From positions 1 to 15,445 of the forward strand of contig MGSU01000064.1 of the NCBI GenBank assembly GCA_001799195.1: a DNA stretch of 15,445 nt, written 5' to 3'. Position numbers and translations under genes: made by a program. The DNA comes from Deltaproteobacteria bacterium RIFOXYA12_FULL_61_11 (GTDB taxonomy: Bacteria; Bdellovibrionota_F; JAHFAK01; YA12-FULL-61-11). The notes beneath the pieces were generated by a model. It worked only from the letters and a program-made list of their open reading frames with translations, ran no database searches and was not told where the DNA came from. Below are positions 2,593-14,863 of this stretch, piece by piece (positions within the stretch are counted from its first letter, which is position 1; every line of letters starts with the position of its first letter).

Positions 2593-3960
2593 TTACCCTC
2601 GGGTCGGGCGGGGGGCGACCGGGAGGTCGATCCCGAGCATTTTCATTTTGCGCCACAGTGTGTTGCGTGAGATGCCCAGGGCCTGGGCCGTTTTATTCCT
2701 GTTGTATCCCTGCCGGACCAACTCCTGGCGAATGGTCTCGGCTTGCGCTCCGGTGAGCGGCGACACCGAGGATCTCGAGGGGAGGGTTTCGACCTGGATA
2801 TTCGCGACGATATGGGGAGGCAGGTCTTCGAGTTGAATGACGCTTGCGATGCAGGTGACGAAGGCGTGCTCGATGGCGTTCTCGAGCTCGCGGATGTTGC
2901 CCGGGAAATCGTAGCGCATCAGGGCGGACAGTACGCGCTCGGAACAGGCAACGATCCTCCTGCCCTGGAGGGCGTTGAAGCGGTTCACGAAGTGCTGCAC
3001 CAGGAGCGGGATGTCCTCCTTGCGTTCGGCCAGGGGGGGGAGTTCGACGGCGAAGACGTTGATACGGTAGAACAAGTCGTTGCGGAAGCGGCGGTGCCGG
3101 ACTTCGCGCTGGAGGTCGCAATTGGTGGCCGCGATGACGCGCACGTCGGTCTTCTGGGTCTCGGTGGAACCCAGGGGCTCGAATTCCCGCTGTTGCAGGA
3201 CGCGTAGCAGCTTGGCCTGCACCTGGAGGGGCAGTTCGCTGATCTCGTCCAGGAGGAGGGTTCCCCCATTGGCCAAGGCGAAGCGTCCGGGTTTATCGGT
3301 TTTAGCGTCCGTGAAGGCGCCTCTGACAAAGCCGAAGAGCTCGGATTCGAGGAGATTCTCCGGTACCGCGGCGCAGTTGAGCGCCACGAAGGGCTGGGAA
3401 CGTCGTGGGCTGAGATTGTGGATCGCACGCGCGACCAGTTCTTTCCCGGTACCCGAAGGACCCTGGATCAGCACGGTGCTGTGACTGTTGGCGACGAGGG
3501 GCAACACCTCGAACAAGCGTTGCATCTTCGGACTCTTGGACACGATGTCCTCGAAGACGAAGCTGCGCGCGAGCTGCTTCCGTAATTCCTTGATGGTGCG
3601 GAGGTCCCGGAACATCTCCACCCCGCCGAGAATCTTCCCCGTGCCGTCGATGAGAGCCGTGGTCGAGATCGCCAACGGCAGCGCCTCACCGTTCTTGGTC
3701 AAGACCGTGACTTCGGTGTCCTCGCAGCGTTCTCCTAAGCGGATGCTCCGTTTGAGCGGACAGGAGGTCGCACAATGATCTCCTCGGAACACCAACTCGC
3801 AGCGTCGGCCGATGACCTCGTCGCGCTGATAGCCGGTCAAGGCTTCCGCGGTCCGATTGAAGGCCGTGATCTGCCCGGTCGAGTCAATGGTGAAGATGCC
3901 ACACGCGATGGAGTCGAAGATCAGCGGGAGAAAACGGGGATCAGGGGAAAGCGTCGTCAT
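2593..3960 (-). CDS. PAS-domain sigma-54-dependent transcriptional activator
   Basis: The 455-residue protein is a bacterial enhancer-binding protein. Residues about 8-120 form a PAS domain with a Cys motif (C54-x8-C63-x3-C67). Residues about 140-375 form the AAA+ domain: Walker A GPSGTGKE (167-174), Walker B GGTLLLDEI (232-240), an R-finger region around RFRNDLFYR (291-299) and DFPGNIRELEN (351-361). Residues about 405-442 form a Fis-type helix-turn-helix. No receiver domain is present, so the PAS domain is the likely input. The sigma-54-contacting GAFTGA loop reads GAFTDA (214-219). I chose ATG 3960 because GGA sits 6 bases upstream; ATG 3996 and GTG 4014 are in frame but lack ribosome-binding sequence and would translate the repeat cluster. 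It is divergent from the redox operon, whose sigma-54 promoter it probably activates. Family certain; target inferred. Confidence 0.93.
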   Translation of the reverse strand: MTTLSPDPRFLPLIFDSIACGIFTIDSTGQITAFNRTAEALTGYQRDEVIGRRCELVFRGDHCATSCPLKRSIRLGERCEDTEVTVLTKNGEALPLAISTTALIDGTGKILGGVEMFRDLRTIKELRKQLARSFVFEDIVSKSPKMQRLFEVLPLVANSHSTVLIQGPSGTGKELVARAIHNLSPRRSQPFVALNCAAVPENLLESELFGFVRGAFTDAKTDKPGRFALANGGTLLLDEISELPLQVQAKLLRVLQQREFEPLGSTETQKTDVRVIAATNCDLQREVRHRRFRNDLFYRINVFAVELPPLAERKEDIPLLVQHFVNRFNALQGRRIVACSERVLSALMRYDFPGNIRELENAIEHAFVTCIASVIQLEDLPPHIVANIQVETLPSRSSVSPLTGAQAETIRQELVRQGYNRNKTAQALGISRNTLWRKMKMLGIDLPVAPRPTRG

Positions 3961-3962
3961 AG

Positions 3963-4001
3963 ATGTTCCATTCTTGAGACATGTTCCGTGAGACATGTTC
4001 G
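3963..4001. promoter_or_regulatory. Repeat cluster, candidate enhancer site for the divergent activator
   Basis: GAGACATGTTC occurs twice as an exact 11-base direct repeat (3976-3986 and 3990-4000, 14 bases apart). A third partial copy, ATGTTCC, lies at 3963-3969. Each full copy centres on the palindrome ACATGT. The cluster lies about 134-172 bases upstream of the predicted sigma-54 transcription start at 4135, which is typical enhancer distance. It also lies immediately upstream of the activator's start codon, so the same sites could give autoregulation. Confidence 0.5.
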
Positions 4002-4044
4002 ATTTCTGTGACACACACTGCAGATGCCCGCAAGTAATATTTCA

Positions 4045-4265: not shown

Positions 4266-5681
4266 ATGGCCACGCAAGCGAAGTACAGCTTCCACACCGA
4301 ACCGTTTCCCCAGGAAGAGCGGCCGAGGCGCTTCCTCGAGGCCTTTGCCGCGGTCTTGCAACACAGCAACTACGGTCCGGTCCTCGACTACTATACCCGG
4401 GTGAGCGCGAAATGCTCTCGCTGCACCGCGACCTGTCCGGTCTACCAAGCCTCCGGGGACCCACGGGACATCCCTTGTCACCGCACCGAGTTGCTGCTCG
4501 CCGTGTATCGCCGCTATTTCACCTTCTCGGGGCAACTCAAGGCGCGGCTCTACGACTCGTCGAGGCTCACCGATGCGGCGATCGACGAGATGGCCGAGGA
4601 ATTCTGGCGTTGTACGGCCTGCAAGCGCTGTAAATCCTCCTGCCCGATGGGGCTCGACCACGCGATGATCACCCATCTCGCTCGCTGGATCATGGCAGAG
4701 ATCGGTATTGTGCCCAAGGCCTTGCTTGTATCGGTGCGGGAACAACTCGAGGGTAGGACCCACAATACCTCGGCCATCCCGGTCAGCGCGATGACGGACA
4801 CCTGCGAATTCCTGGAGGAAGAATTACAAGAACTCTTCCCCGGGCATCCCATCACGTTCCCGATCGACGTCCCTGAGGCCGACTACGTCTTCTTCCCCGC
4901 GGTCTCCGATTACCTCCTCGAGGCCGACACCCTGATGGGCAATGCCGCGGTCCTGTATGCCATCGGCGCGAAGTGGACCATCGGCACCGGTAATTTCGAC
5001 GGCATCAACTACGGACTGTTCTACTCGGACAGGATGTGGGAGCGCATCATCCGGGCCCAGGTTGCCGAGATCAAACGGTTGGGCGGCAAGGTGATGCTGA
5101 TAGGGGAGTGCGGGCATGCCTCGCGTTCGGCCAAGGAAGGCATGCAGTGTTTCATCCCGCCGGAGGAACGCGTGCCGGTCCTGAACATCATGGAACTGAC
5201 CCACGCCGCGTTCAAGGCCGGGACCCTGCGTCTCAACCCTGGGGTTATTGCCGAGCGAACCACCTATCACGACCCCTGCAATATCGCCAGCAACGGTTGG
5301 ATCGTCGACCAGCCGCGGGAACTCCTGCGGCACATCTGCGCCGACTTCGTCGAAATGACTCCCCGAGGGACCGACAATTATTGCTGCGGGGGGGGCGGAG
5401 GTTCCGTGTCCATCGACGAGATCAAACGCTTCAGGATGTACATCGGGGGCAAGACCAAGGCCGAGCAGGTCCGGGCCACGGGCGCGAAGTACGTGGTCAC
5501 CCCGTGTGCCAACTGCAAGAAACAGATGGGTGAATTGCTCGACGAGCACAAAGTCGACTGTACCCGTATCGGTCTGCACGACCTCTTGTTGAAGGCCATC
5601 GAACTGGGGCCGCTGCCGGCCGGCGAGGGGACGACCGACAAGGGCCCGGCGGAACAGAGACCCGAGGTGGAGGGAGCGTGA
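4266..5681 (+). CDS. HdrD/TmcB/HmcF-like Fe-S protein with CCG domain
   Basis: The 471-residue soluble protein is probably the cytoplasmic catalytic or electron-accepting subunit of the membrane redox complex encoded downstream. Residues about 45-130 carry a ferredoxin-type double-cluster domain. The second motif is complete (C116-x2-C119-x2-C122-x3-C126-P). The first reads C50-x2-C53-x3-C57-P and has Ser47 where the leading Cys is expected. A C-terminal CCG (noncubane cluster) domain is intact: C338, C373-C374 and C414-x2-C417. An upstream CCG-like half is degenerate, keeping only ECG at 281-283. This layout matches HmcF, TmcB and DsrK of Hmc/Tmc/Dsr complexes, relatives of heterodisulfide reductase HdrD. 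The ATG at 4266 has AAGGA very close and GGGG further upstream. Its stop shares one base with the next start. Family sure; physiological partner unknown. Confidence 0.9.
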   Translation: MATQAKYSFHTEPFPQEERPRRFLEAFAAVLQHSNYGPVLDYYTRVSAKCSRCTATCPVYQASGDPRDIPCHRTELLLAVYRRYFTFSGQLKARLYDSSRLTDAAIDEMAEEFWRCTACKRCKSSCPMGLDHAMITHLARWIMAEIGIVPKALLVSVREQLEGRTHNTSAIPVSAMTDTCEFLEEELQELFPGHPITFPIDVPEADYVFFPAVSDYLLEADTLMGNAAVLYAIGAKWTIGTGNFDGINYGLFYSDRMWERIIRAQVAEIKRLGGKVMLIGECGHASRSAKEGMQCFIPPEERVPVLNIMELTHAAFKAGTLRLNPGVIAERTTYHDPCNIASNGWIVDQPRELLRHICADFVEMTPRGTDNYCCGGGGGSVSIDEIKRFRMYIGGKTKAEQVRATGAKYVVTPCANCKKQMGELLDEHKVDCTRIGLHDLLLKAIELGPLPAGEGTTDKGPAEQRPEVEGA

Positions 5682-6391
5682 TGGAACACTGGTTGCATTT
5701 TGCGCGCGGACCGATGTTCGTCGCGGCATTGGCTGTACTGGGTTTGGGAATGGCGCGGCTCGTCCTCCTCAATGGGGCCTCGCTGGCGGTGATGCTCCAT
5801 CGGACCCGTAGCCATGGCCGTACCGTGGCCTGGAAGCGGGTGTTGCACAATACCTTCCTCGCCTTACGCCCCTTCCCGGCGAGCGGTGGAGCGAGGCCGT
5901 GGTATTCGCTGCTCTCTCTTGTCTTCCACCTCGGTTTGCTCCTCACGCCCCTCTTTCTCGCCGCCCATATCGTGCTCCTCGAACGGGGCTTTGGGGTGGG
6001 GTGGTGGGCTCTGGACCCGGTCGTCGCCGACTGGCTGACCCTCGGGACCATCGTTTCCGCCTTAGGGTTGCTGTTCCTGCGCGTCGGTTCTCCTTTGTCA
6101 CGAGCCATCAGCAGGCCTCAGGACTACTTCCTGCTGCTGCTCATCCTCACTCCCTTCGTGACCGGGTACCTGGCCATGCACCCGCTGCTCAATCCCTGGG
6201 ATTACGACGCGACCATGCTGGTCCATGTCCTCTCGGGAAACCTCATCCTCGGGTTGCTTCCGTTCACCAAGCTCAGTCATGTTGCGCTGCTGCCGGTCGC
6301 CCAGGTCTTCGGCGAGATAGGTTGGCACCTGCGACCCAAGGCAGGTGAATTCGTGGCTCAGGTGTTAGGGAAGGAGAATCAGCCGATATGA
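5681..6391 (+). CDS. NarI/HmcE/TmcC-like b-heme membrane subunit
   Basis: The 236-residue protein has about five transmembrane helices (near 12-38, 76-100, 115-135, 147-166 and 178-208). Paired intramembrane histidines, H83 with H96 and H182 with H200, are likely ligands for two b-type hemes, as in NarI, DsrM and HmcE. Its likely role is quinol/quinone exchange with electron transfer to the cytoplasmic HdrD-like partner encoded just upstream. ATG 5681 is preferred over GTG 5678 because GGAGG lies 7 bases upstream; the start overlaps the upstream stop by one base (TGATG). The next gene overlaps its stop by four bases, so translational coupling is likely. Family assignment rests on position, helix pattern and histidines; I did not align it. 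Confidence 0.8.
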   Translation: MEHWLHFARGPMFVAALAVLGLGMARLVLLNGASLAVMLHRTRSHGRTVAWKRVLHNTFLALRPFPASGGARPWYSLLSLVFHLGLLLTPLFLAAHIVLLERGFGVGWWALDPVVADWLTLGTIVSALGLLFLRVGSPLSRAISRPQDYFLLLLILTPFVTGYLAMHPLLNPWDYDATMLVHVLSGNLILGLLPFTKLSHVALLPVAQVFGEIGWHLRPKAGEFVAQVLGKENQPI

Positions 6392-7209
6392 CCATCAATC
6401 ACATGGCGATACTCAACGACGTGACCAAATGTACCGGCTGCGAGCAGTGCGTGAGCGCGTGTCGGGACTACAATGCGTTACCGAAGGAGCAGAATTGGCG
6501 TTGGCTGAAAGATCCCCACGAGCTCTCGAGCGCGCGCTGGACGACGATCCGCGAAGAAAAGACCGCCCGAGGACGTCGTTTCGTGCGGAGGCAATGCCGG
6601 CATTGTCTCGAGCCTGCCTGTGTCGAGGCCTGCATTGTCGGGGCTCTGAAGAAGTCACCCAGCGGCGCGGTGACCTATGATCCCGAACTCTGTATCGGGT
6701 GCAGGTACTGTATGGTTGCATGTCCCTGGGAGATCCCGAAGTACAGTTGGGAAGACCGGATCCCGCTCATTCAGAAATGTTCCCTCTGTCACGACCGGGT
6801 GACGGCCGAGGGCAAGGTCCCAGCGTGCGTGGAGGCGTGTCCGCACGGTGCTACCGTCTTCGGCGAGCGTACCGAGCTGCTGGCCGAAGCCCACCGGCGC
6901 CTGGCGGCAGAGCCCGAGCGCTATGTCCAGAAAGTCTGGGGGGAGCACGAGGTGGGTGGAACCTCGGTGCTCTACATCGCCGATTTCGACCTGGCGCTCG
7001 ACGACTTCGCCACGCACGTCGACGATACCACCCCGGTACCCAACCGCACCTTCAGGGTGCTCCGCCACATGCCCTCGGTCTTCGTCGGTATGAGCGCCGT
7101 CATGGGTGGTACCTATTGGATCATCGAACGCCGGCAACGGTTGCAAAAGGAAGGAGCCTCGACCGGGGCCAAGGACGAGGACGGTACGGGAGGAGGGTCG
7201 GAAGCATGA
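6388..7209 (+). CDS. HmcB/DsrO-like ferredoxin subunit, four [4Fe-4S] motifs, no export signal
   Basis: The 273-residue protein has four cluster motifs. Motif 1 is C15-x2-C18-x2-C21-x3-C25. Motif 2 is C70-x2-C73-x4-C78-x3-C82. Motif 3 is C102-x2-C105-x2-C108-x3-C112. Motif 4 is C131-x2-C134-x12-C147-x3-C151. This is the usual subunit that wires NrfD-type membrane proteins to other redox partners. A hydrophobic stretch near 228-246 may anchor it. The N-terminus begins almost directly with the first cluster and has no twin-arginine or Sec signal, so the clusters probably face the cytoplasm, unlike HybA-type relatives. It overlaps both neighbours by four bases. An AAGGAG lies 11 bases before the ATG; ATG 6403 is a possible later start. 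Confidence 0.9.
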   Translation: MTINHMAILNDVTKCTGCEQCVSACRDYNALPKEQNWRWLKDPHELSSARWTTIREEKTARGRRFVRRQCRHCLEPACVEACIVGALKKSPSGAVTYDPELCIGCRYCMVACPWEIPKYSWEDRIPLIQKCSLCHDRVTAEGKVPACVEACPHGATVFGERTELLAEAHRRLAAEPERYVQKVWGEHEVGGTSVLYIADFDLALDDFATHVDDTTPVPNRTFRVLRHMPSVFVGMSAVMGGTYWIIERRQRLQKEGASTGAKDEDGTGGGSEA

Positions 7210-9164
7210 GGCTGTTGACGGTCAAGAGCATTCTCTGGTTCTTCGCGGGCTTCGGGTTCGTCGTCATCCTACTGCGTATGCTCCACGGCGTGGGATCGGT
7301 CGTCGCCTTGAACGACTTGTTGCCCTGGGGGTTGTGGAAAGGGGGCGGGGTCGTGGCCCTGGTTCCCATCGGCGGAGCGGGTTTCACGCTCGCCGCGTTC
7401 GTCTATGTCTTCCACTGGCGTAGATACGAACCCCTCGCCCGCGCCGCGGTCCTCCTCGGCCTGATGTGCTACAGTTCCGTGGCCATCGGTCTGACCTTTG
7501 ACATCGGCATCTGGTGGCGCATCGTCTTCCCGGTCTTCTTCTGGCAATTCCATTCGACCTTGTTCGAGATTGCCTGGTGCATCATGCTCTATCTCGGCGT
7601 GCTCGCCTTCGAGTTCAGTCATGCCATCCTGGAGCGGTTGCGCTGGACCACCATCCTCCACCTCGTCGAGAAGGTTTCCATCGTCTTCATCATCCTCGGG
7701 ATCGCGCTGTCCACCTTGCATCAGTCCTCGCTGGGGACCTTGTTCCTGGCAACCCCGTATCGGCTGCATCCGCTGTGGTACTCTCCTCTGCTGCCGCTGC
7801 TGTTCTTCATCACCGCCATCGGCCTCGGTTGCTTGACGATCACCTGGGTGACCCTGGTGACCCACTGGTTGTATGGGGTGAAGCAACCGTTGGCTCCGCT
7901 AACCGGCTTAGCGCGCATTGCCTCCATCGTGCTGGGCGCGTACCTGGTGCTTCGCCTGGGCGACCTGCTCGTCGCTGGGAAGGCGGGTTACTTCTTCACG
8001 CCGGATTGGAACGTCCTCAATTTCTGGGTAGAGCTGTTGCTCAGCGCGATCCTGCCGATCGTCTTCCTTTCCCGGCGGTCCTACCGCGAGAGCCCCACGG
8101 CTCTGTTCTGGATTGCGACGGCCGCCATCGTGGGGATGTCCCTGAACCGGGTCAACGTCGCCGGGCTGGCCACGCTCTCGGCCACCCAGGCCACCTATAT
8201 CCCGAGCTGGGCGGAATGGTTTGTCACCCTGGGCATTCTCTCGGCCGCCGGGCTGGTGTACCTGTTGTGCGTGGAACATCTCCGAGTCTTCCCGACCATC
8301 GGCGGCGCTCAGGTCGAGGGAGCCCACGATCTTGGAACGATAGACCCGGCCGGCTGGCACACCACCTTCTTCCGGGCGCCCTTTGCCGGAGCCCGCTTCT
8401 TCTCGGCGGTGTTCGTCGCCGCGGTGGGCCTCGTCCTCGTGCTCTTGCCGGACAGCGCGGTCTTTGGGGCTCGCCCCGAGCCGACCCCGACCCGCGGCCC
8501 GCGTTCGGTCGAACTGCAACGCCTTGAAGATGCCAGTGCGGACCTGGTACAGTACGTCTTCCCGATCGAGCCTGATCGCGGGCTCGAGACGCAGAGGACG
8601 AGGGCGCTCCTCCTCGATGCCGATGCCAATGGCCGCTACGTCCTCTTCGAACATGAACGGCACGGCGACCGTCTGGAAGAGCAAGGCCGAACCTGTGCCG
8701 CTTGTCATCACCAGAGTTTGCCCTTCGCGCAGGCCAGTTCGTGCCGGACTTGTCATCGGGACATGTACCAACCTACCCAGATCTTCGACCACGGGGCCCA
8801 TGAGCGTTCTTACGGTGGGAATGCCGACTGTCCTACCTGCCATACGGATCCGACCTTGCCCAAGACGAAGGCCACGACTGTGCAGTGCAAAGAATGTCAC
8901 CCCGCGATGGTCGAGACCGAGACGCTCGTCCGAACGGGTGCTGGCCAGGAGCAATCGACCCTGGCCTCGGGCTACAAGGACGCGATGCACGGCTTGTGCG
9001 TCACCTGTCACCAGCGAGAGGTCGAGCGGGGGAGCAAACGGCCCGGCTTCGGAGAATGCTCGGCCTGTCACCGCGACGTGCCCACGATAACGGGCACCTT
9101 GCAACGGCTGCGAGAGGTTGCTCCCCGCAGTACGCCTATGCAATCCGAGGGCGGGAGGCCATGA
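7206..9164 (+). CDS. NrfD/HmcC-like membrane protein fused to six-heme cytochrome c domain
   Basis: The 652-residue protein has two parts. Residues 1-360 hold about ten transmembrane helices of the NrfD/PsrC/HmcC/HybB type (LPWGLWKGGG at 39-48), the quinone-interacting, heme-free membrane subunit that pairs with four-cluster ferredoxins. An eleventh helix (about 397-415) then leads to a soluble region with six CxxCH motifs starting at C497, C513, C542, C561, C598 and C618. Extra His (FEHERH, FDHGAH, DAMHG) could be sixth ligands, as in class III cytochromes. With the N-terminus inside, eleven helices place the heme domain in the periplasm, where c-type maturation occurs. The frame is continuous, so this is a true fusion, not two genes. 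GGGAGGAGGG lies 8 bases before the ATG. It stands in for both HmcC and the separate cytochrome HmcA. Confidence 0.9.
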   Translation: MRLLTVKSILWFFAGFGFVVILLRMLHGVGSVVALNDLLPWGLWKGGGVVALVPIGGAGFTLAAFVYVFHWRRYEPLARAAVLLGLMCYSSVAIGLTFDIGIWWRIVFPVFFWQFHSTLFEIAWCIMLYLGVLAFEFSHAILERLRWTTILHLVEKVSIVFIILGIALSTLHQSSLGTLFLATPYRLHPLWYSPLLPLLFFITAIGLGCLTITWVTLVTHWLYGVKQPLAPLTGLARIASIVLGAYLVLRLGDLLVAGKAGYFFTPDWNVLNFWVELLLSAILPIVFLSRRSYRESPTALFWIATAAIVGMSLNRVNVAGLATLSATQATYIPSWAEWFVTLGILSAAGLVYLLCVEHLRVFPTIGGAQVEGAHDLGTIDPAGWHTTFFRAPFAGARFFSAVFVAAVGLVLVLLPDSAVFGARPEPTPTRGPRSVELQRLEDASADLVQYVFPIEPDRGLETQRTRALLLDADANGRYVLFEHERHGDRLEEQGRTCAACHHQSLPFAQASSCRTCHRDMYQPTQIFDHGAHERSYGGNADCPTCHTDPTLPKTKATTVQCKECHPAMVETETLVRTGAGQEQSTLASGYKDAMHGLCVTCHQREVERGSKRPGFGECSACHRDVPTITGTLQRLREVAPRSTPMQSEGGRP

Positions 9165-9556
9165 CCGCGAAGCGCATCCTACTCGTGGACGATGAACCCG
9201 ACGCCCTGGAATTCCTCCAAGACGTCTTGGAGGATCATGGGTATCAGACCGTGACCGCGACCAGCGCGACCCAAGGGTTGAGCTTGGCCCGGGAGCATTG
9301 TCCCGATCTGGTGTGTCTCGATGTCCTGATGCCCGAAGAAACGGGTATGTCGCTCTTCCAGAAATTGCGCCTCGACCCGGTCTTGCAGCACGTACCGATC
9401 ATCATCACCAGCGGCCTCAGCTTGACCCGGGACCTCGAGCAGATCCAGTACCGCAACCTCCCCGACGGGACCATCCTCGACGGGCCCGAGGGCGTGGTCG
9501 AAAAACCCATCGAGGTAGAGACCCTGTTGCGGACCATTGCTCGGGTGCTGCCATGA
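9161..9556 (+). CDS. Receiver-only response regulator (first of three)
   Basis: The 131-residue protein is a single CheY-like receiver domain. It has the acidic pair D10/D11, phosphoacceptor D54 (LVCLDVLMPEETG), S84 in ITSG and K115 in VEKP. No DNA-binding or enzymatic output domain follows, so it must act through protein contacts or as a phosphate relay or sink. The start overlaps the fusion-gene stop by four bases and its own stop overlaps the kinase start, so it is made with both. Receiver genes next to Hmc (rrf1) and Tmc operons in Desulfovibrio are, from memory, a similar arrangement. The loop 88-112 is longer than usual, with RNLPDGTILDGPEG before the conserved Lys. Confidence 0.92.
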   Translation: MTAKRILLVDDEPDALEFLQDVLEDHGYQTVTATSATQGLSLAREHCPDLVCLDVLMPEETGMSLFQKLRLDPVLQHVPIIITSGLSLTRDLEQIQYRNLPDGTILDGPEGVVEKPIEVETLLRTIARVLP

Positions 9557-11415
9557 CGACCGGGTCCATCCCCCCCGAGGTACCACCGGAGGTACGCCGT
9601 TGGCTCGGGGAGCAACTATTCCTCCAGGTGCCGAGCAACATCGTGGTGGTCGATAGGCAGTACAGAGTGGTGCTCGCCAATCATCAGTTCACCGAGGTCT
9701 TCGGCGAGGCGATCGGCCGGCGGTGTTATCAGGTGTACAAGCGCCGCGAAGAGCCTTGCCAGGATTGTCTTGCAGCCAAGACCTTCCTCGACGGCGCGGT
9801 GCATGTGAACGACGAGGTCGGCAGGGATCTCAACGGCAAGGCCGCTCATTACGTGGTCTATACCTCGCCGGTCTTCGACGAGGCCGGAGAGATCAGCCAC
9901 GTCATTGAAATGTCGCACGATGTCACCGAGACGAAGAACCTCCAGCGAGCCTACAACCTGCTCTTCGAACGCGCGCCCTGTTACATCTCGGTAATCAACC
10001 GGGACCTCCGCGTCGTGCGCGCCAATGAGCAGGTACGCGAGAAGTTCGGCGAGCGCATCGGCGAGCATTGCTACGAAGTCTACAAGCACCGCGGCGAGCG
10101 TTGCCCGGACTGCCCAACGCTCGGCACCTTCGCCGACGGAAAGATCCACTGCGCCGAACAGATCGGGACGGACAAGCACGGCAAGCGGACGCACTTCATC
10201 GTCTCCACCGCGCCCCTCGCCCACGGCGAAGAACCATGCAACCACGTCATCGAGCTGTCGACCGACGTGACCGCGGTCCGCCAACTCAACGACCAGCTCC
10301 GAGAAGAAGCCTCCTTCCAACGTATCCTCATCGAGAGCACGCTCGACGCTCTCGTGGCCATGGATCGAGAGGGGAAGGTGCGCGTCTTCAATCCCGCGGC
10401 CGAAGAGCTGTTCGGCATCTCGGCCGACGAGGTCATCGGCAAGGTGGCCGGTGACCGTTTCATGCCTGCGAGATTCCTGCAGGTGGTAGAACATGGCGAG
10501 GACAACCTCTCCCTCGAGGAGGCCGTGGTCGAGGATGGCCACGGAGAGAAGCTCCCAGTGCGGTTCTGCGGCTCGGTTTTGCGCGATGGCCCGCACATTC
10601 TCGGTGGTGCGGCATTCTTCCAGGACTTGCGCGAGCGGAAACGTCTCGAGAAAGAGAACCTGGACAACGAGCGTCTCGCGGCCGTGGGCCAGACCGTGGC
10701 CCAGCTCGCACACGGCATCAAGAACATACTCAACGGGTTGCAAGGCGGCATGTACATCTTGCGCTCGGGTATGCGTTCCAATTCTCAGGAGAGGACGACC
10801 AGGGGCTGGAGCATGCTCGAGCGCAATGTCGAGCATATCACCACCTTGGTGAAAGGTTTCCTCACCTTCGCCAAAGGGCGCACTCCCAAGGTGAGTCTCC
10901 TGGATACGAATGCCGTGGGCCGAGAGGTGTACGAGCTGTATCACGCTACCGCGGCCGCCAAGGGCATCACCTTGCACTGGACTCCCGCACCGGGGGTGCA
11001 GCTCGCCGCGATGGATGCTGAGGGCTTGCACACCTGCCTGGCCAATCTGGTCTCCAATGCCCTCGACGCGTGCCAGACCTCTCCCCCCGATAGGCGGAAG
11101 GTCACCTTGAGCTCGAGCGAAACCGAGGGTACACTCATCTTCGCGGTGACCGATACCGGCTGCGGCATGGAGTACGAGATCAAGAACAAGGTGTTCACGA
11201 CCTTCTTCACCACCAAAGGTACCGAGGGGACGGGCCTCGGACTGCTGGTGACCCGCAAGATCACCCAGGAACACGGGGGTCACATCGAGGTCCATTCAGA
11301 ACCGGGCAGCGGTTCGACCTTCAAGCTCCTGTTCCCCCGGCACCGGTTGCCGCGGCCGAGCGAGACGGAGCCCCATCCATCATCCAGCGGAGGAGACGTT
11401 CATGGCGAAACCTGA
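9553..11415 (+). CDS. Soluble triple-PAS sensor histidine kinase
   Basis: The 620-residue protein has no transmembrane segment. PAS1 (about 25-130) and PAS2 (about 138-245) each carry an identical Cys pattern, C-x10-C-x2-C (C58/C69/C72 and C173/C184/C187), in the frame CYxVYKxRxExCxDC. PAS3 (about 254-365) is a conventional PAS without these Cys. A short helical linker (ERKRLEKENLDNERL) leads to the phosphorylated His387 in QLAHGIKN. The ATPase domain has an N box (N498, N502), DTGCGM (534-539), a FFTTK lid and GTGLGL (559-564). It is NtrB-like in the H region. The start overlaps the upstream receiver stop by four bases and depends on coupling, as no ribosome-binding site is seen. It probably senses cytoplasmic redox or a metal and phosphorylates the adjacent receivers. 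Function of the Cys is inferred. Confidence 0.92.
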   Translation: MTTGSIPPEVPPEVRRWLGEQLFLQVPSNIVVVDRQYRVVLANHQFTEVFGEAIGRRCYQVYKRREEPCQDCLAAKTFLDGAVHVNDEVGRDLNGKAAHYVVYTSPVFDEAGEISHVIEMSHDVTETKNLQRAYNLLFERAPCYISVINRDLRVVRANEQVREKFGERIGEHCYEVYKHRGERCPDCPTLGTFADGKIHCAEQIGTDKHGKRTHFIVSTAPLAHGEEPCNHVIELSTDVTAVRQLNDQLREEASFQRILIESTLDALVAMDREGKVRVFNPAAEELFGISADEVIGKVAGDRFMPARFLQVVEHGEDNLSLEEAVVEDGHGEKLPVRFCGSVLRDGPHILGGAAFFQDLRERKRLEKENLDNERLAAVGQTVAQLAHGIKNILNGLQGGMYILRSGMRSNSQERTTRGWSMLERNVEHITTLVKGFLTFAKGRTPKVSLLDTNAVGREVYELYHATAAAKGITLHWTPAPGVQLAAMDAEGLHTCLANLVSNALDACQTSPPDRRKVTLSSSETEGTLIFAVTDTGCGMEYEIKNKVFTTFFTTKGTEGTGLGLLVTRKITQEHGGHIEVHSEPGSGSTFKLLFPRHRLPRPSETEPHPSSSGGDVHGET

Positions 11416-11941
11416 GGACAAGACCATTCTGGTCGTCGACGACGAGGCCGACGCGCGGGAGTACATGGCTGCCATGCTCGAAGACGCAGGGTTCAAGGTC
11501 GTCCTGGCGGCGAACGGCGAAGAAGCCTTGGAACACGTGCGCGCCGCGGCGCCGGACTTCATCTCCCTCGACCTGGTCATGCCCCTGAAATCGGGCATTC
11601 GGTTCCTCCACGAGCTGAGGCGGAACAAGCAATGGGCCAAGATCCCCTTCGTCATCGTGACCGCGCACGCCGGGGACGATGAAGGCCGGGATGACTTGGC
11701 CAACATCCTGGACGGAAAGACTTTTTCAGGACCAGGCTTCTATCTCGAGAAGCCGGTCAAGGCCGAGGTCTACGTTCGCTACGTTTGTGAGCAAGTCGGC
11801 CTTGCCTATGACACCCTTGCTCCAGCCCTTCCGAGCAGCGGCCTCGAGAGGGCCAGACAAGAGTTGCAAGACCTGCTCGAGCATGCCGACGAGAGCAGTG
11901 TACAAGAAGCGCTCCGCGTTCTCCGCGGGGGGCGGCGTTGA
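11402..11941 (+). CDS. Receiver-domain response regulator with helical C-terminal tail (second of three)
   Basis: The 179-residue protein has a receiver domain at about 6-130: D13/D14, phosphoacceptor D57 (FISLDLVMPLKSG), T87 (VTAH) and K117 (LEKP). The last 45 or so residues (from LAPALPSSGLERAR) are charged and helix-prone and resemble no DNA-binding domain I know; they may be a partner-binding or dimer helix. It overlaps the kinase gene by 14 bases, with a strong GGAGGAG 6 bases before the ATG. An insert between the Thr and Lys strands (GDDEGRDDLANILDGKTFSGPG) is longer than usual. Likely substrate of the adjacent kinase. Confidence 0.9.
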   Translation: MAKPEDKTILVVDDEADAREYMAAMLEDAGFKVVLAANGEEALEHVRAAAPDFISLDLVMPLKSGIRFLHELRRNKQWAKIPFVIVTAHAGDDEGRDDLANILDGKTFSGPGFYLEKPVKAEVYVRYVCEQVGLAYDTLAPALPSSGLERARQELQDLLEHADESSVQEALRVLRGGRR

Positions 11942-11989
11942 GCCGTGGCCTCGAGAGCGCAGGTTCGTAAACAGGAGAAGGAGCCCTCT

Positions 11990-12346
11990 ATGAAGAAAGA
12001 CATCCTCGTGGTTGATGACGAACTCGATCAGCGAGACTACCTCAAGGCTCTGCTCGAGGACCACGGGTATTCCGTGCGTACCGCCGCGGATGGCCTCGAG
12101 GCGATGCAGCGGGTCAAGGAGGCCACGCCCGACCTCGTCCTCCTCGACCTGCAGATGCCCGAGGAAACCGGCACCGGGTTCTACCGCAAGTTGCACCAGC
12201 ACAGCGAGCTGCGCACTATTCCGGTCATCGTTATCAGCGGGCTCGCCGGGCGTGACGTGGCGGTGAGCAAGTCGGTCGTGGTGCTGGACAAACCCCTCGA
12301 CGAGGCTCGCGTACTCGAGGAGGTGCGGCGGGTTTTCCCGGATTGA
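11990..12346 (+). CDS. Receiver-only response regulator (third of three)
   Basis: The 118-residue single receiver domain has D9/D10, phosphoacceptor D53 (LVLLDLQMPEETG), S83 (VISG) and K101 (LDKP). It resembles the first receiver of the operon more than the second, sharing MPEETG and an SGL after the fourth strand, so these two may be duplicates. There is no output domain. ATG 11990 is chosen because AAGGAG sits 6 bases upstream; an in-frame GTG at 11945 would add 15 residues that look like leader sequence. It lies 48 bases after the second receiver and appears to be the last gene of the operon, although no clear terminator follows. Confidence 0.9.
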   Translation: MKKDILVVDDELDQRDYLKALLEDHGYSVRTAADGLEAMQRVKEATPDLVLLDLQMPEETGTGFYRKLHQHSELRTIPVIVISGLAGRDVAVSKSVVVLDKPLDEARVLEEVRRVFPD

Positions 12347-12402: not shown

Positions 12403-12430
12403 TTGACGGGTGGGTTCCTGGTGCTACACT
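12403..12430 (+). promoter_or_regulatory. Sigma-70-like promoter for the lipoprotein gene
   Basis: TTGACG (12403-12408) and TACACT (12425-12430) are separated by 16 bases. Each matches its consensus at four or five of six positions. Transcription would start near 12437, about 60 bases before the ATG at 12497. This suggests that the lipoprotein gene is separate from the upstream redox operon. Confidence 0.5.
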
Positions 12431-12496
12431 GCCACCTCGGTCGGCCGGCCCCGTGGTTCGGCTCGATCCGACGAGGTCACCTTCCAGGAGCTTGCC

Positions 12497-13585
12497 ATGC
12501 GACGTTGTTCTCTGCTGTGCTGGAGTTGGATAGTGCTCCTCGGAGCCTGCGAGGGCGACGAGAAGACCCCGGATCTGGCCGCCTTGTCAGCCGGGGCGGT
12601 GGTCGAGGAAGGTGTTGGGGGAACGGTCGAACTTGAGGTGGCGACGCTCAACCTCGCCGTGGGTTTCGGTCTGGAACGCTTGTCCAAGTATATCCTCATG
12701 CCGGCGACCGTCGAGGACCTCAGCGCCGACACCGCCTCCTTGGTCGACGAGATGAGCGAAGCCAAGCCCGCTGAACGCCTCGCGGCCCTGGCGAAGGCCC
12801 TAGCCGAGGATGCGCCCGAGGTCATCGCCTTGCAGGAGGTGATGAGGGTGCGTTTCGGTGAAGAGGTCGTCCATGACTTCCTTGCAGCATTGCTCGAAGG
12901 CCTCGCGGCCGAAGGTCTCACCTACGAAGCCGCGTATCAGGAAACCGAACCCCTGACCTTGCCGTTCTGGAGGGAAGGGGTCGCCACGGAGCTCAGCTTC
13001 AACGAAGGCAATGCCATCCTGGTGCGCGACGAGGTGGAACTCGTGGATGAAGAAGGGCGCATCTTCGAGGCCGCGGTCGGGCCGATCCCGATCCTCGAGG
13101 CTTCTTTCAAGGCCGAGAGAGGGGTCCAACGGGTACGGATTCGCAAACAGGGTCTCGACGTCGAGCTCTACAACACCCACCTCGAGATCGGCGCTTTCGC
13201 GGGCGTGCATGCCTCGCAAGCCGAGGAATTGGTCGAGTACCTCGGGTCCTTCCAGATAGGCACTCCGAGGGTCCTACTCGGGGACCTCAACGCGGTGCTC
13301 GGGAGTAAAACGTACCTCGACCTCGCTTCCTTGCCCATGGCCGATGTCGCACTCCTCGTAGAAACCCCACCTGCGCCGACCTGCTGTCAGGTCCTGTTCG
13401 AGGGAGAGCAGGTGACCGTGCCGCTGCAACGCATTGACTACATCTTTGCCTCGGGACTCACCTCCGCGAGCGAGGTGCGGACCGGGCTGAGCGACGGTGC
13501 CGTGCCGGGAGCCTCCGAACTCCTCCACCCCAGCGATCACCTCGGCGTCCTGGCGACCCTCCGTTTCCCGAAAGCGGTCGAGTGA
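12497..13585 (+). CDS. Endonuclease/exonuclease/phosphatase-fold lipoprotein
   Basis: The 362-residue protein begins with a lipoprotein signal: a basic MRR, a hydrophobic core and the lipobox LGAC with lipidated Cys18, followed by Glu, so outer-membrane sorting is likely. The mature part has the metal-dependent EEP (DNase I-like) fold motifs: Asn52 (ATLNLAVG), Glu114 (IALQEV), His228 (YNTHLE), Asp263/Asn265 (LLGDLNA), Asp314 (RIDYIF) and Asp347-His348 (PSDHLG). All expected catalytic positions are present, so a phosphodiesterase or phosphatase acting at the cell surface or in the periplasm is likely. The substrate (nucleic acid, phospholipid or phosphoinositide-like) cannot be decided. ATG 12497 has AGGAG 6 bases upstream and gives the signal peptide; longer in-frame starts do not. 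It converges on the LamG gene with a 34-base gap. Confidence 0.88.
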   Translation: MRRCSLLCWSWIVLLGACEGDEKTPDLAALSAGAVVEEGVGGTVELEVATLNLAVGFGLERLSKYILMPATVEDLSADTASLVDEMSEAKPAERLAALAKALAEDAPEVIALQEVMRVRFGEEVVHDFLAALLEGLAAEGLTYEAAYQETEPLTLPFWREGVATELSFNEGNAILVRDEVELVDEEGRIFEAAVGPIPILEASFKAERGVQRVRIRKQGLDVELYNTHLEIGAFAGVHASQAEELVEYLGSFQIGTPRVLLGDLNAVLGSKTYLDLASLPMADVALLVETPPAPTCCQVLFEGEQVTVPLQRIDYIFASGLTSASEVRTGLSDGAVPGASELLHPSDHLGVLATLRFPKAVE

Positions 13586-13619: not shown

Positions 13620-14795
13620 TCAATCGTTCTTGGGATCATCGAAGCGGCCGTACATCAGGAACCGCGAGAGCTTGCGGCCGAACTCGCGCAGCGGCCCCTT
13701 GACGAACTGCTGGATAGGGGTGGGTTGCTCGTACTCGATCCCGGCCAGGGCTGCCAGACGTGCGGGGATGCGATAGATCCGGACCTCGTCGAGGTCGACC
13801 TCGGTTGCGGCGCTGTGGGAGGTCGGTCCGAGCACGAGGTTCCCGGTACACTTGACCGTGGTCATACGCGGGTCGATCGGGAAGCTCCCGTAGCGTTCGC
13901 CGTCGAGGAGTACGGTCAGTTCCTTCCCACTGTGCACGACGACGAGGTGGTGCCACGCGCGGGCCGAAACCTCGGGCAGATCGGCGTGGCGGCTGCCGTA
14001 GCCCACGGCAGGTCCGGTGGTCAACTCTTGCCGGAAGTTCATGGTTTCCATACCGAGGGTTCGCCAGGTCTCGTGGAAGCCGAGCGCCAAGCGGTATTTG
14101 TAGACAAAGCTCCCGGTGCCGGCATCCACGGTCAGAATCTCGAAGTAGTTGTTCTTGACCTGGGGCAGGCGGAACCACAGATCGACCGCATGGGCGCCAT
14201 CGAAGAAGCGCGCGGTCTTGCCCTCGCGCAGGTCGAGGACCAACCCATAGCCGTTGCCCTCAGCGGTTTTCGTCAAGCGCAGGGCCGAGCCCCGATGCCC
14301 CTGCACTGCTTCTCCGCGGACTCGGACGCGTTCGAAGAGCTTCCCGTCGTGGAACCCGTGCTCGTCGGCGACGAAACGGCCGTTATGGTCGTCGGCCAGC
14401 TCGACCGGGTCGAAGGGCAGGTAGACGAGCTCGTCGGAGGAGGGTACGACCGCTTCTCCGGCGCAGGCTTCGACGTCCTCTGGCCCCAGTTCCTTCCCCA
14501 AGCGTTCGACCGCACGGTCGAGGCAGAAGAGGTGGTGCAGGTCGGTGTAACGCGGACAGGCCTGGGCCATGGCCAGGATGGCCTCTTCTTGCTGGAGATA
14601 GAGAGCGACGAGGGCGGCACAGGCGAGGGCGTGGGCCGACGAGGTGGCGCAGAGGGCTTCTTCGAGTTGCGGGTTGATACCGGGGAGCTCGCCGAGCTGT
14701 TCGGCGCAGGCTTGACGGTCGAGGCGTTCCTGCCAGACAGCGCGCAGTTGGAAGGGGAAGATCAAGCTGGCGAGGAGGACGAGCCGTAGGGTCAT
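13620..14795 (-). CDS. Secreted LamG/concanavalin A-like domain protein with Cys-rich N-terminal region
   Basis: The 391-residue protein has a Sec signal peptide (MTLRLVLLASLIFPFQLRA, probable cleavage after A19). Residues 20-115 form a helical region with six Cys (C30, C49, C59, C80, C91, C111), possibly disulfide-bonded. Residues about 123-345 look like a LamG/pentraxin-type jelly roll: LVYLPFD, GSALRL, VDLWFRL, WHHLVVVHSGKELTVLLDGER and DLDEVRIYR are typical of the fold. The tail (355-391) is basic and may contain an amphipathic helix. A carbohydrate- or surface-binding role is plausible; no enzyme motif is seen. ATG 14795 has GGGAG 6 bases upstream; a longer frame from 14846 would begin upstream of the predicted promoter and hide the signal peptide. 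The plus-strand open frame at 13725-14789 is its shadow. Confidence 0.8.
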   Translation of the reverse strand: MTLRLVLLASLIFPFQLRAVWQERLDRQACAEQLGELPGINPQLEEALCATSSAHALACAALVALYLQQEEAILAMAQACPRYTDLHHLFCLDRAVERLGKELGPEDVEACAGEAVVPSSDELVYLPFDPVELADDHNGRFVADEHGFHDGKLFERVRVRGEAVQGHRGSALRLTKTAEGNGYGLVLDLREGKTARFFDGAHAVDLWFRLPQVKNNYFEILTVDAGTGSFVYKYRLALGFHETWRTLGMETMNFRQELTTGPAVGYGSRHADLPEVSARAWHHLVVVHSGKELTVLLDGERYGSFPIDPRMTTVKCTGNLVLGPTSHSAATEVDLDEVRIYRIPARLAALAGIEYEQPTPIQQFVKGPLREFGRKLSRFLMYGRFDDPKND

Positions 14796-14829
14796 GGGAC
14801 GCTCCCGAGCTGTGGCCGCAGCGACCAAC

Positions 14830-14845
14830 CGCAAGAAGTGGGCCA
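14830..14845 (-). promoter_or_regulatory. Sigma-54-like promoter for the LamG protein gene
   Basis: On the minus strand TGGCCC-ACTTC-TTGCG matches TGGCAC-N5-TTGCW with correct GG-to-GC spacing, deviating at the A of the -24 block and at the last W. The predicted start is near 14819, 24 bases before the ATG at 14795. This leader length resembles that of the left-edge secreted gene. Confidence 0.45.
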
Positions 14846-14863
14846 TGCAGGAAGGCCATGCCT

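Follow-up and report, generated by a model that had tools for sequence, protein, structure and literature searches.

Can a quinone-interacting membrane protein be tied covalently to a chain of c-type hemes, and what would such a protein do in the cell? As NrfD itself lacks a redox cofactor, an iron-sulfur subunit brings the electrons to the quinone in the known members of its family. The question is raised by one gene in a 15,445-nt stretch of DNA (hereafter the window) from Deltaproteobacteria bacterium RIFOXYA12_FULL_61_11, in which a first-pass annotation had recognized an NrfD-type protein running on into a multiheme cytochrome. Its premise that cytochrome and NrfD are otherwise separate subunits agrees with the literature, where this is the rule for the described Hmc, Qrc, Nrf and ACIII systems (PMC8076601, Table 1; PMC6303296; PMC10924467).

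The fusion gene (7206–9164, + strand) starts with ATG, overlaps the preceding HmcB-type gene by 4 bases and translates without a stop into 652 residues. Residues 1–364 (7206–8297) form an NrfD/HybB/HmcC-type domain with ten transmembrane helices, recognized by hydrophobicity, structure alignment and nearly full-length matches of the HybB (NF008133, E = 7e-71) and HmcC (NF045714, E = 5e-61) models to residues 8–364. An eleventh hydrophobic segment at residues ~400–422 (8403–8471), also seen in the structure model, precedes a class III/HmcA-like cytochrome domain (residues ~478–625; 8637–9080), which is matched over residues 477–623 by Pfam Cytochrom_CIII (2e-10) and Cytochrome_C7 (4e-8). Its six CxxCH motifs lie at residues 497, 513, 542, 561, 598 and 618 (motif starts 8694, 8742, 8829, 8886, 8997 and 9057). 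Translation, profiles and hydrophobic segments thus bear out the layout first read from the sequence, with ten NrfD/HmcC helices, an extra helix and six heme motifs in one frame. The profile check proposed with it came out divided: the cytochrome c3-type profile (Cytochrom_CIII) matched, but the NrfD profile PF03916 was reached by relatives and not by the window's protein, so that a PF03916 test would have missed the fusion. In an AlphaFold2 model (pLDDT 77 for the whole chain), the NrfD part aligned with ActC of alternative complex III (Z 28–30) and PsrC (Z 17), which, with D99, S117 and E121 retained, assigns it to the NrfD/PsrC superfamily fold of two four-helix bundles with a P-side quinone site. 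The cytochrome domain, modelled on its own, came out poorly (pLDDT 57) and was left out of the fold search.

The fusion is one conserved clade found in at least five phyla, not a singular protein. After removal of duplicates, we counted 19 fused proteins with five or six hemes, including the window's, in 15 genomes. The 18 full-length homologues share domain order and junction and lie on independent contigs of different phyla. The same architecture occurs in Myxococcota and Gemmatimonadota (loci L001–L004) and in further genomes outside the window's phylum; the phyla of the window and of genomes G025 and G007, each tiny in the genome set examined, are distinct from one another, which gives the count of at least five. 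A maximum-likelihood tree built from 83 NrfD domains groups the 19 fusions in one clade (support 100/99), whose sole unfused member (L029) has a sequence that stops at a contig edge. That two genes were joined by a lost stop codon, a frameshift or a misassembly (an error at 8390–8500 had been named beforehand as what would refute the fusion) is excluded, even though separate genes for NrfD and a small cytochrome stand side by side in other loci (L132), because full-length homologues from several phyla share the junction and fall into one clade.

A lost-stop origin from such an adjacent small cytochrome was likewise considered and is rejected for now; the separate cytochrome of L132 is of the c554 type, not HmcA-like. 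Of the unfused relatives found for the cytochrome domain, the nearest is a separate hexaheme cytochrome in L138 (5007–6011; genome G264), which has its own N-terminal membrane segments and stands beside HmcF and HmcE, without HmcB or NrfD. At L137 (5185–6685; G301), apparent decay is seen: the NrfD is cut after ~110 residues, and the frame that comes next encodes the cytochrome domain.

Five heme sites are present in all 19 proteins and heme 3 in 16, which therefore carry all six hemes, while the other three carry five. Exactly six histidines outside the CxxCH motifs are conserved, namely H483, H486, H502, H532 and H595 in 19/19 and H529 in 16/19. Heme 3 and H529 are missing from the same three proteins, which have lost no other candidate ligand and form one subclade, so that they count as a single event. 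This pattern fits bis-His ligation of all hemes, with H529 as the predicted sixth ligand of heme 3. When a profile of the cytochrome domain was searched against the PDB, the best matches were HmcA structures (2e84, E = 4e-18; 1z1n; 1gws). Pairwise BLAST with the HmcA of the window's own genome returned only a low-complexity-like alignment of CxxCH motifs; the relation to HmcA therefore rests on the profile search.

The position of the hemes relative to the membrane follows from the charge distribution. Even-numbered loops hold more Lys and Arg than odd-numbered ones in 19/19 fused proteins (mean 15.0 vs 6.7), which favours an N-terminus on the inside. With ten NrfD helices plus one, the hemes would then lie outside, where heme c attachment takes place; the counts support a predicted topology of N-in, C-out with periplasmic hemes. 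The suggestion that the extra helix is what places the hemes in the periplasm was thus sound.

For the quinone site, we aligned the fusion with E. coli HybB and used the residue list of PMC8076601. The HybB quinone-site residues D109, S129 and E133 (fusion D99, S117 and E121) are present in all 19 proteins, as are the N-side path residues Y99, Y141, E148, E155, H184 and S187 (fusion Y89, Y129, E136, E143, H172 and S175). Residues R89, Y99, E148 and H184, which were tested in HybB (PMC8076601), correspond to fusion R79, Y89, E136 and H172, position 79 being either R or K. The quinone-site residue D58 of HybB corresponds to fusion residue 48. In five proteins, the window's included, this residue is Gly, and six further ones have Asn; such replacements could alter quinone binding. 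A putative hard-wiring of the periplasmic hemes to the quinone site by the fusion is plausible.

The fusion gene closes a four-gene operon on the + strand. It is preceded by genes for an HmcF/DsrK-type cytoplasmic Fe-S protein with a CCG domain (4266–5681), an HmcE/TmcC-type, NarI-like cytochrome b (5678–6391), and an HmcB-type Fe-S subunit with a C-terminal hydrophobic tail (6388–7209), assigned by profiles and, for the last, motifs; neighbouring genes overlap by 4 bases. This order is retained in L001–L004, L120–L128 and L130. The cofactor-binding residues are equally constant, with 16 invariant Cys in HmcB (four [4Fe-4S] clusters; 17/17), five invariant His in HmcE (18/18) and invariant ferredoxin and CCG cysteines in HmcF (16/16). 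In most members, the operon is flanked by a sigma-54 activator and, at its opposite end, by a kinase or response regulators. In the window, these are a divergent PAS-AAA-HTH_8 activator (2593–4014, − strand), identified by profiles and by locus comparison as usually kept beside the operon, and a partly conserved downstream set on the + strand comprising a response regulator (9158–9556), a PAS histidine kinase (9553–11415) and two further response regulators (11402–11941 and 11945–12346). Genes for a GDSL hydrolase (1277–2491), an endonuclease/exonuclease/phosphatase protein (12410–13585) and a laminin-G-like protein (13620–14846, − strand) have no evident link to the operon.

Among known systems, the operon resembles Hmc of Desulfovibrio vulgaris (HmcABCDEF) in uniting HmcB, HmcC, HmcE and HmcF homologues, in the four [4Fe-4S] clusters and C-terminal tail of HmcB, in a class III-type multiheme cytochrome nearest to HmcA, and in its co-occurrence with dissimilatory sulfite reductase. 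It differs in that the cytochrome is carried on HmcC, with six hemes instead of 16, in the gene order F-E-B-C, and in an HmcB without the Tat signal of the canonical one. The window has no separate gene for a 16-heme HmcA, and HmcD is absent from the operon, where the 4-base overlaps leave no room for it. All NCBIfam equivalog cut-offs are missed (HmcC 207/550 bits, HmcB 246/420, HmcE 121/275, HmcF 186/750); HmcF is closer to DsrK (250/400), likewise below cut-off. A conventional Hmc operon lies on another contig of the window's genome; it encodes a 16-heme protein, an HmcB with a Tat signal and a free-standing HmcC that exceeds the equivalog cut-off. In the variant L119, a separate 16-heme cytochrome is kept upstream of HmcB and the fusion, and together with L138 it informs on the modularity of the complex.

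DsrMKJOP covers the same five functions with a CCG Fe-S protein (K), cytochrome b (M), multiheme cytochrome c (J), ferredoxin (O) and NrfD protein (P), and the operon's HmcF scores best against DsrK. Here, however, cytochrome and NrfD are fused, at least one of the fusion genomes also encodes true DsrMKJOP subunits, and the matches listed for the fusion include neither the DsrP equivalog for its NrfD part nor the DsrJ equivalog for its cytochrome (NF045798 and NF038038). HybAB of E. coli hydrogenase 2, QrcCD and ActBC share the ten-helix NrfD fold and the quinone-site and proton-path residues, but their NrfD subunits are not described with a C-terminal cytochrome, and no hydrogenase, QrcB or molybdoenzyme-like ActB partner is encoded in the fusion operon. 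CbcL is a single b/c fusion chain, whose membrane part is a heme-b protein, in contrast to the cofactor-free NrfD of the fusion.

We then asked in which genomes the fusion occurs. Of the 15 fusion genomes, 12 have a full dsrA match above cut-off; the exceptions are G049, G025 and G041, the last two with fragments that may sit at contig ends. In a domain-wide survey, dsrA was present in 6/8 fusion genomes compared to 25/378 others (p = 4e-6), and in a second survey, of the phylum of the Gemmatimonadales locus, in 3/4 compared to 2/294 (p = 9e-6); both values ignore relatedness, and the genomes are not phylogenetically independent. Comparison with genomes having only unfused NrfD matches (dsrA in 5/49) gave p = 3e-4. 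Further genes of the pathway are dsrB and an adjacent DsrL-like oxidoreductase in the window's genome, aprA and DsrC in G047, and DsrK, DsrJ and DsrP in G587; the reductive-type marker DsrD, found in 2/15 fusion genomes, is uninformative. This association suggests that the fusion complex, like Hmc, takes part in the metabolism of sulfite or sulfate. The link may be indirect, as the genomes also encode conventional Hmc (the window's) or DsrMKJOP subunits (G587). Since it extends to Myxococcota, Gemmatimonadota and other lineages, the operon is a candidate electron-transfer complex where sulfur metabolism is poorly known. A protein of ~80 residues is encoded directly after dsrB at L158 (8108–8359), with equivalents in L160, L162, L163 and L165; those of L158 and L160 were searched and have no NCBIfam match.

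Taken together, we consider it likely, with a probability of about 0.7, that the fusion provides the membrane subunit of a compact complex of the Hmc type, linking a cytoplasmic partner, menaquinone and periplasmic cytochromes; through the four gene products, electron flow in the cytoplasm would probably be coupled to electron carriers beyond the inner membrane. In such a complex, the DsrK-like HmcF would swap electrons with a cytoplasmic thiol-disulfide partner, for example DsrC, and HmcE would move them across the membrane via two b hemes. Close to the periplasmic face, menaquinone would give electrons to the HmcB/NrfD pair or take them from it, the pair possibly drawing protons from the cytoplasm by analogy with QrcABCD, for which proton uptake from the inside was measured (PMC6303296). 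The eleventh helix would keep the HmcA-like hexaheme domain in the periplasm, where this domain would exchange electrons with c-type cytochromes. We infer the DsrC partner, the direction of flow, the assembly of the complex and its proton coupling; for Hmc itself, role and direction are still uncertain (PMC6303296).

A rival view concerns the side of the membrane on which the Fe-S subunit sits. HmcB starts directly before the first cluster motif in the window, as does each fused-clade partner with a covered N-terminus, and none of those whose start is covered carries a signal peptide (window 6388–7209; L001–L004 and L118–L130). An in-frame stop lies 18 codons upstream of the window's HmcB start, no operon product bears a Tat signal, and no Tat-bearing co-export partner is seen in the operon. 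Judged by these N-termini, the export signal is lost throughout the fusion clade. HmcB might accordingly stay in the cytoplasm, docked on the inner face of NrfD, with quinone site and hemes outside. We regard this as rather unlikely, since the hydrophobic tail is followed by more Lys and Arg on its C-terminal side in most fused-clade proteins, as in Tat-exported ones, which favours N-out/C-in. Moreover, in described P-side NrfD complexes the Fe-S subunit adjoins the periplasmic quinone site (PMC6303296), and co-export has been put forward to account for a tail-anchored ferredoxin that lacks a leader and is found next to a Tat-exported FeFe hydrogenase (PMC10924467). The fuller version, in which the cytoplasm holds the four-cluster Fe-S subunit of the NrfD complex, the quinone site and covalent hemes face the periplasm, and the complex is dedicated to sulfite-reducing lineages, appears less probable still. 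If true, NrfD would stand between a redox chain inside the membrane and one outside it, where otherwise it joins two that lie on one side. GcvH-like proteins (PF01597) flank a leaderless HmcB and an unfused NrfD, together with sigma-54 regulators, in L132, L134 and L135.

Setting the side of HmcB apart, the complex could also serve extracellular or interspecies electron transfer, with NrfD oxidizing menaquinol, the fused hemes passing electrons via periplasmic cytochromes to the outside, and sulfite metabolism not directly involved. Related NrfD loci lie among many multiheme proteins, and in metal reducers inner-membrane bc-type menaquinol oxidases feed such a route, as CbcL does in Geobacter (PMC12307469). 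However, the constant partners HmcE and the DsrK-like HmcF should face the cytoplasm, the association with dsrA is strong, and no outer-membrane conduit was recognized in the operon; we therefore think this improbable and retain the Hmc-type complex as the preferred reading.

In profile searches, no NCBIfam or Pfam family covers the whole chain, which speaks against the concern that the fusion might already be a standard annotated family, and it is undescribed in the open-access literature searched. Two published candidate precedents were checked: Mco of ANME archaea uses a VhtC-type cytochrome b, and for the DsrOP-tetraheme locus of cable bacteria, the passages found present the tetraheme protein as a member of the locus and make no mention of a fusion. 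Because cytochrome and NrfD are fixed at 1:1 and the topology is fixed by covalent heme, this natural fusion is a good target for structural and liposome work on NrfD proton coupling. According to the tree, NrfD–cytochrome fusions arose at least four times, this 5/6-heme clade included. Independent examples carry three hemes (L147 and L148; G114 and G248) or 12–13 hemes, including PF11783 (L143 and L144; G048 and G046). In yet another clade, L142 (3–3194; G677) encodes a single chain of 1064 residues that combines a Tat signal, a four-cluster Fe-S domain, NrfD and 11 hemes, which places both Fe-S clusters and hemes outside in that relative.
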